Source of the DNA: Deltaproteobacteria bacterium RIFCSPHIGHO2_02_FULL_40_28
GTDB taxonomy: Bacteria; UBA10199; 2-12-FULL-40-28
Direction: 5' to 3'
Length of the DNA stretch: 64,000 bases
Assembly: GCA_001798135.1 (NCBI GenBank)
Contig: MGRJ01000015.1
Span: forward strand, 1 to 64,000
A model generated the notes under the pieces. The model was not told where the DNA came from. It saw only the letters and a program-made list of their open reading frames with translations, and made no database searches. The translations under genes were made by a program, and so were the position numbers. Of this stretch, positions 37,383-46,456 are shown one piece after another. How positions within the stretch are numbered: the first letter of the stretch is position 1; each line of letters begins with the position of its first letter.

Positions 37383-37656
37383 AAAGCCCGATCTTCTTTT
37401 TGAGGCACCGTTAAATTTTTCATCCTTTCCTTGGCTTCTTCATCTTTGGCATTAATTTTTTTGAGAAATCGGTGTGTATACATCCGCATGCATTATATAT
37501 CTAAAAAACGAGGTTGGAAGAGTTTGTGTTTTCTTAAGAAAACGTGAATCAGTCGTTATTTTGTAATAATTAGTTTATATTTTATTATTAATGACAATTT
37601 AAAATTGTCTTATTTTTATAATAATAAACCTTGAATTAGTTTATTATAAATATATA
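37383..37656. other. AT-rich intergenic region before the AbiE-like operon
   Basis: A 274-nt non-coding stretch, much more AT-rich than the genes on both sides, separates the pur cluster from an accessory module. It holds three perfect or near-perfect palindromes: GTTTTCTTAAGAAAAC (37528-37543), GACAATTT-A-AAATTGTC (37593-37609) and ATAATAAAC-N9-GTTTATTAT (37621-37647). I see no gene in it. Confidence 0.7.
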
Positions 37657-37658
37657 AT
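37593..37658 (+). promoter_or_regulatory. abiE promoter and operator palindromes
   Basis: TTGAAT (37631-37636), a 16-bp spacer and TATAAT (37653-37658). The -35 lies in the 9-nt loop of the inverted repeat ATAATAAAC/GTTTATTAT (37621-37629, 37639-37647), and a second palindrome (37593-37609) lies about 20 nt upstream. AbiEi antitoxins are known to repress by binding inverted repeats at their promoter. Start point near 37665, just before the ATG at 37666. Confidence 0.6.
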
Positions 37659-39309
37659 GTCAATTATGGATGGTCATAAACAACAAAAATTAAACTTTTT
37701 ATTAAATAATTTACCCCCAGGTTGTGTTGTTGTTCAATCATGGCTAAGTAAAAATGATATATATCGGCAACTTGTGGAAGTATATTGTAAATCTGGCTGG
37801 CTGCAAAAGATAGGGCATGGGGCCTATGTTCGTCCAGGTGATGCCATTTTCTGGACCGGTGGCATTTATGCCATTCAGAAACAGTTAGAACTCCCAATAC
37901 ATGTTGGTGGCAGTACAGCATTACAGAGGCAGGGCTTAGCTCATTTTCTACCCTTAGGTGGAGGAGGATCTATTTTCCTCTTGGGACAACCACCTGTCAA
38001 ATTACCCAGATGGTTTAGAGAATATGATTGGAATGTAAAAATTCATTATTCAGCACTTCAACTTTTTAATCCTGCAATGGAAGCTGGTCTGACACAAGAA
38101 AATATTGGTCAATATACGATTACACTATCATCGCCTGAACGAGCGATCATGGAAGTGCTTCATTTTATACCTAAGGAAGAATCTCTCGAAAATGCAAAAT
38201 ATCTGATGGAAGGCTTAACTACCTTAAGGCCCAACTTTATCCAAAAATTACTGGAAAAATGTCGATCCGTAGAAGTGAAACGTCTTTTTCTATTTCTCGC
38301 TGAGGAATGCAAGCACGACTGGGTTAATGATCTAGACATAAGTCGCATAGATCTGGGCAAGGGAAAACGGGTTATTTTTCAACAAGGACGACTCGATCCG
38401 ATCTATAGCATTACGGTACCCAACAAACCATTTGTTGATTCCCGGCGCCAGATGCAGAACCTGCAAAATAGACGAAAAAAATCTCCCGCAGTCCGTTTGA
38501 TGTGTCCTGAACAAGGAACACAACTAACCTATGGCAAAGAACATGGTTGTTTTGGATCCATGCTCTATTTGGCCTTTGAGAGTGGATATCTTCCGGTCCT
38601 TGATCATCTTTTAAAGGAGTTTAAGATCGAGCAAAGGGGCTCAAAAGATTTTCAGAAGAGACTAAAAGAAAATTGGTTACCACATGTGCCGGGAAATAAT
38701 CTTAATGAGATAAATAAAAGAGCAAACAACACATTTGCCGCCTTAATTGAGCTTATGGTTGCTCAGCATCTCAAAGAGAATGGAGCCAAAATTGTTAATC
38801 TTGAAGCATGGAAACAGAAAAATTCTCGAATAAAAGTTCCTGATATTCATTATCAAAACAGCATTAAGAACCATTGGAATGCCGAAATAAAATATATCGA
38901 CCAATCCCCTGAATGGCAGGAAAATGTTGTAACCCAGTTGAAAACGGGAAAGCCTAAGGGAAGATGGTTTGGTGATGGGGAATTTATAAACTACTATTTT
39001 GGCAGAATTGCAGAAGCGAGTAAGCAGCTTGAATCACATCCATACGAAACAAGACAAGTGTGGCTTGTTTTTCATGCTAGGGCAAATTTTGAAAGGACTA
39101 TATTCGAGGAAAACTATCTTAAAAAACCGCCCCACTGGTTTGAGAATACAGAGGAACAAAAAAAAATTTTGGAAATGTTCGGTACAGACATTGCCAAAAC
39201 TACCCCATCAGAGTGGCTCAAAAAAGTTCCACAAATCATTTTGGCAACATTCAATTCATGGTCGCTTGAAAAGATAAAACGATATAAGACAAAAGATCTA
39301 ATTACATGA
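37657..39309 (+). CDS. AbiEi-type antitoxin fused to PD-(D/E)XK-like nuclease module
   Basis: Residues about 1-255 (550 total) form a complete AbiEi-type antitoxin: N-terminal winged-helix segment with GWLQKIGHGAYVRP, IHVGGSTALQRQGLAHFL, LSSPERAIMEVL, closing with SITVPNKPF. A linker (256-350) leads to an extra module: helix with E365 (LIELMVAQHL), D396 (VPDIHY), then E410-x-K412 (AEIKYI) and a later strand VWLVFHAR. This order and spacing match the PD-(D/E)XK nuclease core; the assignment is mine, from motif only. The gene overlaps the AbiEii toxin gene by 4 nt. A start at 37666 (three residues shorter) fits the promoter better. Plain AbiEi proteins are roughly half this length, so the fusion is unusual. 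Confidence 0.75.
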   Translation: MSIMDGHKQQKLNFLLNNLPPGCVVVQSWLSKNDIYRQLVEVYCKSGWLQKIGHGAYVRPGDAIFWTGGIYAIQKQLELPIHVGGSTALQRQGLAHFLPLGGGGSIFLLGQPPVKLPRWFREYDWNVKIHYSALQLFNPAMEAGLTQENIGQYTITLSSPERAIMEVLHFIPKEESLENAKYLMEGLTTLRPNFIQKLLEKCRSVEVKRLFLFLAEECKHDWVNDLDISRIDLGKGKRVIFQQGRLDPIYSITVPNKPFVDSRRQMQNLQNRRKKSPAVRLMCPEQGTQLTYGKEHGCFGSMLYLAFESGYLPVLDHLLKEFKIEQRGSKDFQKRLKENWLPHVPGNNLNEINKRANNTFAALIELMVAQHLKENGAKIVNLEAWKQKNSRIKVPDIHYQNSIKNHWNAEIKYIDQSPEWQENVVTQLKTGKPKGRWFGDGEFINYYFGRIAEASKQLESHPYETRQVWLVFHARANFERTIFEENYLKKPPHWFENTEEQKKILEMFGTDIAKTTPSEWLKKVPQIILATFNSWSLEKIKRYKTKDLIT

Positions 39310-40217
39310 CGTATAAAAAATATTTCGATCAAGCGAAGTTATTGCTTCGGGTTTTACCACATGTTGCAAAAGAAGATTGCTTTGCCCTGAAGGGCGGGAC
39401 AGCAATCAACCTTTTTGTAAGAGAAATGTCACGACTTTCAATTGATATTGATCTTGCGTATCTTCCAGTTGAAGAGAGGGCAGAATCATTAAAAAATATG
39501 GGGCAGGCTTTGGATCGTATTACCAAAGAAATAAATTTTCTTTACAAAGTAACTCCTCAAAAGACAACAGAGCAGCTAATCACATTTACTTCCAAGCTTC
39601 TTATTACCTCAAAAGAGGGCATTGTTAAAATTGAACCCAATACTGTATTCCGTGGTAGCGTATTTCCTGCCGAAAGACGCAATCTGGTCAAAACTGCCGA
39701 GGACAAGTTTGAACTATCAACGACCGTTAAAATACTTTCAGTGGCTGATCTCTACGGAAGTAAGCTTTGTGCGGCACTTGACCGTCAGCATCCTCGTGAC
39801 CTTTTTGATGCAATGATGCTTCTTAAAAATGAGGGGATTAATGAAAAGATACGAAAAGCATTCGTTATTTACCTAGCAGGACATAATCGTCCTACGCATG
39901 AATTGCTTGATCCAAATTTTAAAGATATTGAACAAGAATATGAAAGTGATTTTCGTGGCATGGTGGAAACAGATGTGTCTTGTGAGGATCTTATTCAATG
40001 TCAAAAAAACCTGCCCAGCATAATCAGGAAGAAACTTTCAAAAGACGAAAAAAATTTTCTTATGGACCTCAGCGAAGGGCACCCGAGATGGAGTTTATTG
40101 GGTATTAATGGAGTCGCAAAACTTCCTGCCCTTGAATGGAAACTTCGGAATATTAACAAAATGGATTCAACGAAACGCATGGAACAGTTACACAAACTTA
40201 CTACCATTTTGGAGTAA
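39306..40217 (+). CDS. AbiEii/AbiGii-family nucleotidyltransferase toxin
   Basis: The 303-residue protein has the DNA-polymerase-beta-like nucleotidyltransferase signature of AbiEii: FALKGGTAINLF (G30-G31) and the metal site SIDIDL (D47, D49), plus DLYGSKLCAALDRQHPRDLFDA, the conserved second motif. AbiEii toxins are nucleotidyltransferases and relatives modify tRNA; the substrate here is unknown. All core residues are intact. It is translationally coupled to the antitoxin-fusion gene by an ATGA overlap. It is followed after 94 nt by a second toxin-antitoxin pair with its own promoter. Confidence 0.88.
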   Translation: MTYKKYFDQAKLLLRVLPHVAKEDCFALKGGTAINLFVREMSRLSIDIDLAYLPVEERAESLKNMGQALDRITKEINFLYKVTPQKTTEQLITFTSKLLITSKEGIVKIEPNTVFRGSVFPAERRNLVKTAEDKFELSTTVKILSVADLYGSKLCAALDRQHPRDLFDAMMLLKNEGINEKIRKAFVIYLAGHNRPTHELLDPNFKDIEQEYESDFRGMVETDVSCEDLIQCQKNLPSIIRKKLSKDEKNFLMDLSEGHPRWSLLGINGVAKLPALEWKLRNINKMDSTKRMEQLHKLTTILE

Positions 40218-40311: not shown

Positions 40312-40545
40312 ATGAAAATGTTGAATATCTCACAAGCCAAAGCCCAACTTTCCTCGGTCATTGAACAAGTTTTAACCAAGGGGGAAGCCTTTCTCATTGG
40401 CAAGGCTGGCAAACCGGTAGCTAAAATCATTCGTTACGAACCAGCGCGTAAAAACAACCGTTTGGGTTTGTTTGCCGGGAAAATTAAAATTGCCAAAAAC
40501 TTCGATGAATGGCCAAATGATATTGGTGAATCTTTAGGACTATGA
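40312..40545 (+). CDS. Phd/YefM-family antitoxin
   Basis: The 77-residue antitoxin reads NISQAKAQLSSVIEQVLTKGEAFLIGKAGKPVAKI, the Phd/YefM DNA-binding fold, followed by a short toxin-binding tail with FDEWPNDIGESLGL. It neutralises the PIN toxin encoded 4 nt inside its end and should repress its own consensus promoter. No ribosome site is present; the ATG coincides with the expected transcript start. An ATG two codons later is an alternative start. Confidence 0.9.
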   Translation: MKMLNISQAKAQLSSVIEQVLTKGEAFLIGKAGKPVAKIIRYEPARKNNRLGLFAGKIKIAKNFDEWPNDIGESLGL

Positions 40546-40919
40546 AGCTCCTTCTCGACACCCATGTATTACTTTGGGCTCTTTCATCAAAACATGACTT
40601 ATCAACACTCGTTAGAGAAGCTTTAGAATCTGACAGCAATGTTATTTTTGTAAGCTTAGCATCCCTTTGGGAACTCAAAATCAAAGAAGGTTTGGGCAAG
40701 GTGCATTTACCTAAGAATTTTTACAGCTCTCTGGAGCCAGCAGGGTATGAATTACTTCCTATTCAACTGGGTCACATTGAAGGAATAGGAAAATTACCAC
40801 CCCATCACCGCGATCCTTTCGATCGCTTGCTTATTGCCCAAGCCAAGGCAGAACAACTTCTCTTGGCTACACGAGACGAAAACATTAAAAAATACGATGT
40901 GAATATTTTGTGGGCTTAA
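40542..40919 (+). CDS. vapC: PIN-domain toxin (VapC type)
   Basis: The 125-residue toxin shows LLLDTHVLLW (first Asp), SLWELKIK (Glu), RDPFDRLLIAQA (Asp) and LLATRDENI (last Asp), a complete acidic PIN site. This subgroup (HHRDPFDRLLIAQA) usually pairs with Phd-type antitoxins, as here. It is a predicted ribonuclease with unknown target. It lies beside the AbiE-like operon, so two toxin-antitoxin pairs are stacked between purF and topA. Confidence 0.9.
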   Translation: MKLLLDTHVLLWALSSKHDLSTLVREALESDSNVIFVSLASLWELKIKEGLGKVHLPKNFYSSLEPAGYELLPIQLGHIEGIGKLPPHHRDPFDRLLIAQAKAEQLLLATRDENIKKYDVNILWA

Positions 40920-45487: not shown

Positions 45488-46456
45488 TTATCGGGAAGGT
45501 TTCTCAATACTCATGATCACCTTGCCATTGCGGAAAATCCGCACATCGCCTGTGGATTCAGAAATAACAATAGCAATAGCACTTGTCAATGCCGTAATAC
45601 CCGCAGCTGCAATGTGTCTTGCCCCTAAGCCACGTGGAATTTCAGACTCATCTGTTGCAGCTCCTAGGTAGCGTCCTGCAGAAATAAGTTCCCCATCACC
45701 TGAAATAACAAAAGCTCCATCAAGAGCCGAAAATTCAAAGAGGGTATCTTTTAAGGTAGGATTTAAAAGATTGCGTTCTTCTTCACTATATCCCTTAAAA
45801 GGATTAATGATCATTTGTTTAGACAGTTGCATCACACGTTCTTCGTCACCTAAAACAAAAATGGTACCTACTGGTTTGCCTTCGCGTCCTTTATTAGAAA
45901 GTTCGATGGCTAAATTTAAGGTGTGTTCAAATACAGCAGGTTTTACTGTTTCAGGAATATCGGCAAAATCAGTTCCTGTTAAAATTTCTGATTCTTTGTC
46001 GATTTCAAAAGCAAGGACAATATCAAGAAGCCCCTGTTCACTTTTGCCACCTAAAAAAACAATGGTATCGGTAGGATTTACTAATTTAGCTGAAATAGCC
46101 AGGATAACAGAAATTTTAATCATGCCCATACGCCCCAGCTTAAGAGAGGGGAGGGTTAACACACCCTTGGGAGTAACCTTTCCTGTCCAAACCATGTCTT
46201 CCTTTTTAGTTACTAAAATCAGGTTTAAATCTTTAGGAAGATTTTCAGGGATAAGACTATCGTCTACGGCATCGCAATACACCAAAAGATTTTTTGCTTT
46301 AATACCACGTGCTGCATTAAGTGCAGCTTTGATGAGGGCTCTGTTTTGTACTTTAGCTGCACGAGCTAAATCCCAAGTTGGTTTTTTCTTTTGTTTTTTA
46401 GTTTCTTGTTTGGGCTCGCTGCTTATTAATTCTTTATCGCTTGTGAGAAGTTTCAT
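45488..46456 (-). CDS. Diadenylate cyclase, DacZ-like (c-di-AMP synthase)
   Basis: Residues about 235-315 (322 total) form a DisA_N/DAC domain: LDGAFVIS (D246-G247-A248), LISAGRYLGA, GLGARHIAAAG (R280-H281) and VISESTGDVRIF. This domain makes cyclic di-AMP from two ATP. The N-terminal 200 residues form an alpha/beta domain (LLVYCDAVDD, TIVFLGGK), an architecture like archaeal DacZ rather than membrane CdaA or DNA-binding DisA. The usual RHR motif reads RHI here. The PgpH-type phosphodiesterase at 23.4 kb would degrade the product. It is divergent from dsbD. Confidence 0.85.
   Translation of the reverse strand: MKLLTSDKELISSEPKQETKKQKKKPTWDLARAAKVQNRALIKAALNAARGIKAKNLLVYCDAVDDSLIPENLPKDLNLILVTKKEDMVWTGKVTPKGVLTLPSLKLGRMGMIKISVILAISAKLVNPTDTIVFLGGKSEQGLLDIVLAFEIDKESEILTGTDFADIPETVKPAVFEHTLNLAIELSNKGREGKPVGTIFVLGDEERVMQLSKQMIINPFKGYSEEERNLLNPTLKDTLFEFSALDGAFVISGDGELISAGRYLGAATDESEIPRGLGARHIAAAGITALTSAIAIVISESTGDVRIFRNGKVIMSIEKPSR

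Follow-up and report, generated by a model that had tools for sequence, protein, structure and literature searches.

We describe a type IV AbiE operon whose antitoxin, AbiEi, is extended by a long C-terminal tail carrying the motif order of a PD-(D/E)XK nuclease and is followed directly by the nucleotidyltransferase toxin AbiEii. The AbiEi-tail/AbiEii pair is real and unusual, the role of the added part being putative. Our leading reading, held tentatively and at somewhat less than even confidence, is that a PD-(D/E)XK-like nuclease gene was fused to abiEi and that the tail serves as a second effector. The operon lies in a 64,000-nucleotide stretch (the window) of contig MGRJ01000015.1 from Deltaproteobacteria bacterium RIFCSPHIGHO2_02_FULL_40_28, where purF flanks its two genes at one end and topA, with a Phd/PIN toxin-antitoxin pair, at the other. 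Its features, in window positions, are the following.

37593..37609, no strand assigned: AT-rich promoter/operator region with the palindrome GACAATTTaAAATTGTC (weak evidence)
37657-39309, plus strand: AbiEi-tail gene, a single ORF of 550 aa
37657..38427, plus strand: AbiEi_3 antitoxin/repressor part, residues 1-257 (AbiEi_3_N winged helix and AbiEi_3 C-terminal domain)
38428..38703, plus strand: linker and N-terminal part of the tail, residues 258-349 (weak resemblance to the free-standing protein L105, described below)
38704..39156, plus strand: PD-(D/E)XK-like core, residues 350-500 (motif seen directly; E, D, ExKYI and EAxKQL identical in L105)
39157..39309, plus strand: C-terminal end of the tail, residues 501-550 (stop codon overlaps the abiEii start)
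39306-40217, plus strand: AbiEii nucleotidyltransferase toxin gene, 303 aa (assigned by Pfam, PADLOC and motifs)

The abiEii start codon lies within the stop codon of the AbiEi-tail gene (ATGA, a 4-nt overlap), and a sigma-70-like site at 37631-37658 is located upstream of and at the start of the latter gene. Palindromes with 8-bp arms, comparable to that at 37593-37609, also arise in approximately 10% of shuffles, so the evidence for an operator at this position is weak. The second toxin-antitoxin pair, which directly follows the abiE operon, consists of a Phd/YefM antitoxin and a PIN-domain toxin (40312-40919); a promoter-like site at 40276-40305 matches TTGACA-18-TATAAT perfectly. Further along the window, a minus-strand gene (45491-46456) encodes a DisA-like DAC (di-adenylate cyclase) domain and a DacZ_P sensor-like domain.

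Both AbiE components are readily recognizable. In AbiEi, the Pfam domains AbiEi_3_N (residues 9-100; 6e-30) and AbiEi_3 (residues 106-255; 3e-47) both score above the cut-off, and the PADLOC AbiEi model is matched end to end (residues 8-257; 5e-84); the protein thus has the N-terminal wHTH and the C-terminal antitoxin domain of type IV AbiE antitoxins. AbiEii matches the Pfam AbiEii profile (2e-36) and, over its full length, the PADLOC AbiEii model (4e-113), and its nucleotidyltransferase motifs, KGGTAIN, RLSIDIDL, KIEPN and KLCAALDRQHPRDLFD, are intact in an alignment with eight relatives, so that the toxin, with its conserved motifs, stands directly downstream of the antitoxin as in type IV AbiE. 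In an AbiE system studied previously, AbiEi is a repressor of the operon that binds inverted repeats and needs no more than its C-terminal domain to neutralise the toxin; AbiEii is a GTP-binding nucleotidyltransferase with bacteriostatic toxicity (PMC3985639). As judged from sequence, the features underlying AbiE repression, neutralisation and toxicity are present in the AbiEi and AbiEii parts described here.

The original prediction had read the antitoxin gene as a complete AbiEi region followed in frame by extra residues, and this description holds: the 550-aa product comprises an AbiEi_3 part (residues 1-257) and a 293-residue tail. The tail frame runs for 295 codons without a stop, with a GC content of 0.38 and a GC3 of 0.35, near those of the neighbouring genes, and is genuine coding sequence. 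Two adjacent genes might have been merged by a sequencing or assembly error, given that the genome (2.16 Mb) is a draft of 31 contigs; however, the joint lies within one uninterrupted frame, a second start accompanied by a ribosome site is not evident there by eye, and the assembly has ratings of 100% for completeness and 0.03% for contamination, which leaves such an artefact a very slim chance.

The tail appears to be peculiar to this lineage. It is lacking from the AbiEi proteins of the 80 best genomic relatives (approximately 40-57% identical; the 80 best loci among the matches listed, one AbiEi motif being required) and from those of eight viral, six plasmid and three same-phylum relatives, all of which extend by at most 13 residues past the conserved AbiEi end; where both genes were found, abiEii generally begins directly at that end. 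Because the full 550-aa protein served as the confirmation query in the genomic scan, any relative with a tail would be expected at the top of the ranking. Furthermore, no plasmid record covers 80% of the 550-aa protein. The three same-phylum relatives are the other AbiEi_3 genes that turned up among the 46 genomes of this phylum. Since AbiEi stops at this point in the relatives checked, the most plausible reading of the tail is that it was inserted between abiEi and abiEii in this lineage and became fused to abiEi. Among the relatives and genomes searched, the fusion was found in one genome only, as would be expected if a neighbouring gene had been joined to abiEi by chance in a single lineage and were carried as a passenger, possibly inactive and sharing no function with AbiE. 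The uninterrupted frame and normal codon use argue against this possibility, as does the conservation of the predicted catalytic residues described below; we consider such a passenger fusion possible but unlikely.

Within the tail, the residues named in the original prediction are correctly numbered, with E365 in FAALIELM, D396 in VPDIHY and E410 and K412 in AEIKYI; these are followed by EASKQL (Q457) and by the strand VWLVFHA, the beginning of the downstream VWLVFHAR. E, D and ExK follow one another in the order, and at the distances, typical of the PD-(D/E)XK superfamily. Crude secondary-structure propensities place a helix at E365, a strand at D396 and a helix-strand after ExK, and score the ExK segment itself as helical in the window sequence, a pattern that fits a PD-(D/E)XK core in part. 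The tail (residues 258-550) has no credible match in Pfam, including any of its PD-(D/E)XK families, or in NCBIfam, PADLOC, PHROGs or PDB sequences, and its likeness to the superfamily is one of motif. Single-sequence AlphaFold2 prediction, run without homologues, yielded pLDDT values too low for interpretation (36.5 for the tail and 41.6 for the core). We accordingly term the tail PD-(D/E)XK-like and do not file it as a superfamily member.

How much weight the motif can bear depends on how often it arises. A strict version, E-x(20-45)-PD[ILVFY]-x(8-20)-hExKh, was chosen after the fact. It is uncommon, with 3 of the 624 long frames in the loci containing it (approximately 0.4% per 300 residues); the motif alone is not proof. 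A loose version occurs in approximately 4% of 300-aa stretches. Together with the lack of any family match and of a predicted fold, the latter frequency would be consistent with the tail being some other domain, with E, D and ExK present by chance or for another purpose. Against this interpretation, the same four residues, with identical DI-x12-ExKYI spacing, recur in an independent relative, and we regard a non-nuclease tail as unlikely. Such exact conservation in an independent protein is, on sequence grounds, stronger evidence than the motif itself.

This relative, L105, was the one convincing match in a search of approximately 1650 genomes with the tail.

L105:1291-2256 (genome G1223): free-standing protein of 322 aa, encoded between hemL and a TPR-protein gene

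The genome belongs to another phylum, and the match has an E value of 1.6e-5 for that genome. The alignment covers 202 residues at 24% identity and scores 45.8 bits, compared with 29.3 bits for the best of 2000 shuffles of the L105 sequence. Identity is highest at the predicted catalytic blocks, namely, LIExMxAxxLxxNGxxIxNLEA around E365, D396-I, ExKYI and IxEAxKQL (Q457), the last including the shared EAxKQL helix; the proline of 'PD' is not kept. All four of the residues proposed as catalytic (E365, D396, E410 and K412) are identical in L105, so that E, D and (D/E)xK are found in order and conserved, in a comparison of two sequences, the tail and its single relative. At 24% identity, we estimate that four given positions would be conserved by chance with a probability of roughly 0.3%, assuming independent positions. 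The predicted nuclease module is thus supported by the motif and by one relative: the proposed architecture of AbiEi, extra module and AbiEii stands, as does the retention of E, D, E and K in the sole relative; no profile of a named family matches the tail. No AbiE partner is present in the L105 locus, L105 being a separate gene and the tail being fused to an antitoxin. Taken together, the two sequences suggest a small unnamed family of putative nucleases that is recognised by no profile library.

Searches for further members returned nothing real. This was the outcome of tblastn searches of plasmids and phages with the full tail and the core (up to E=10) and with L105 as the query, and of peptide-pattern scans of the genome and viral contigs, in two of which the alignments were supplemented with short fragments of the tail and L105 to steer the patterns. 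The viral DNA patterns PD/ExK and D-x12-ExKYIG yielded 21 candidate loci, none of them related. The genome sets searched with the tail comprised 46 genomes of its own phylum and sets of 398, 8, 395, 338 and 345 genomes centred on other phyla; an empty result in such a set, which contains no known positive, is weak. The weak candidates rejected on inspection were L101 (ClpB-like), L103 (Rhs-like and lacking the D), L104 and L106 (both with stop codons) and H42 (intergenic, with stops). A fragment in genome G1323 (L123/L126) resembles the first 100 residues of L105; as its similarity is confined to this N-terminal part, L123 was not accepted as a relative of the tail.

We propose that a free-standing PD-(D/E)XK-like nuclease gene entered between abiEi and abiEii and was fused in frame to the antitoxin gene. 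The AbiEi part would still repress the operon and neutralise AbiEii, as in other AbiE systems, whereas the tail, a presumed metal-dependent nuclease, would serve as a second effector that the antitoxin part keeps silent or close to DNA and that acts once the AbiE balance is upset, for instance, by phage infection. The gene pair may then combine two harmful activities rather than one, which, we infer, would place two effector activities behind one antitoxin. Alternatively, the tail might be a nuclease-like aid to neutralisation, trimming the nucleotides that the AbiEii-type transferase would add to tRNA ends or cutting abiEii mRNA. The module indeed sits on the antitoxin and not on the toxin, and the lengthening of tRNA acceptor stems by MenT enzymes (PMC10435456), relatives of AbiEii, would offer an RNA end that an antitoxin-linked nuclease could trim back. 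However, in the previously studied system the AbiEi C-terminal domain suffices to neutralise the toxin (PMC3985639), and L105 stands free of any AbiE partner in its locus; we regard such an aid as quite improbable. Among the roles considered, a second-effector nuclease appears most likely, neutralisation less so, and a passenger fusion is also possible; retention of the four predicted catalytic residues relative to a protein only 24% identical speaks against the last. The fullest version of the second-effector reading, a composite AbiE in which one polypeptide would combine repression and neutralisation with the activity of an undescribed PD-(D/E)XK nuclease family, one antitoxin thus governing the two effector chemistries of nucleotidyl transfer and nucleic-acid cleavage, is fairly unlikely. 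If the tail is active, this much-studied class of defence toxin-antitoxins would gain a second chemistry, with E365, D396, E410 and K412 as a named set of residues for testing.

Our searches of the open-licence literature did not turn up any AbiEi antitoxin that carries a nuclease tail and lies beside AbiEii. The closest known systems are the type IV AbiE systems of the AbiEi_3/DUF2893 branch (PF17194 and PF11459, with AbiEii, PF08843), which both proteins resemble over their full domains and with which they share gene order, overlapping coding sequences and intact toxin motifs; the difference lies in the 293 additional residues of the antitoxin, the relatives checked stopping at the AbiEi end. 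A second comparison is provided by AbiEi_4-DUF559 proteins, such as that encoded on an actinobacterial (Tsukamurella) plasmid (L133:940-1806; WP_068740572.1), in which AbiEi_4 (7e-8) and DUF559 (4e-11) occur in one chain without an AbiEii gene. It was retrieved with a consensus query. Its DUF559/REase_MTES_1575 domain is one that we take to be PD-(D/E)XK-like. The AbiEi-tail protein matches neither AbiEi_4 nor DUF559 in Pfam, and hhalign detected no similarity between the tail alignment and the L133 C-terminus (probability 0.1%). The two kinds of protein therefore differ in AbiEi family, in nuclease family and in the presence of an adjoining AbiEii, yet both join an N-terminal AbiEi-type DNA-binding domain to a C-terminal nuclease-like domain, an arrangement within one chain for which there is thus precedent.
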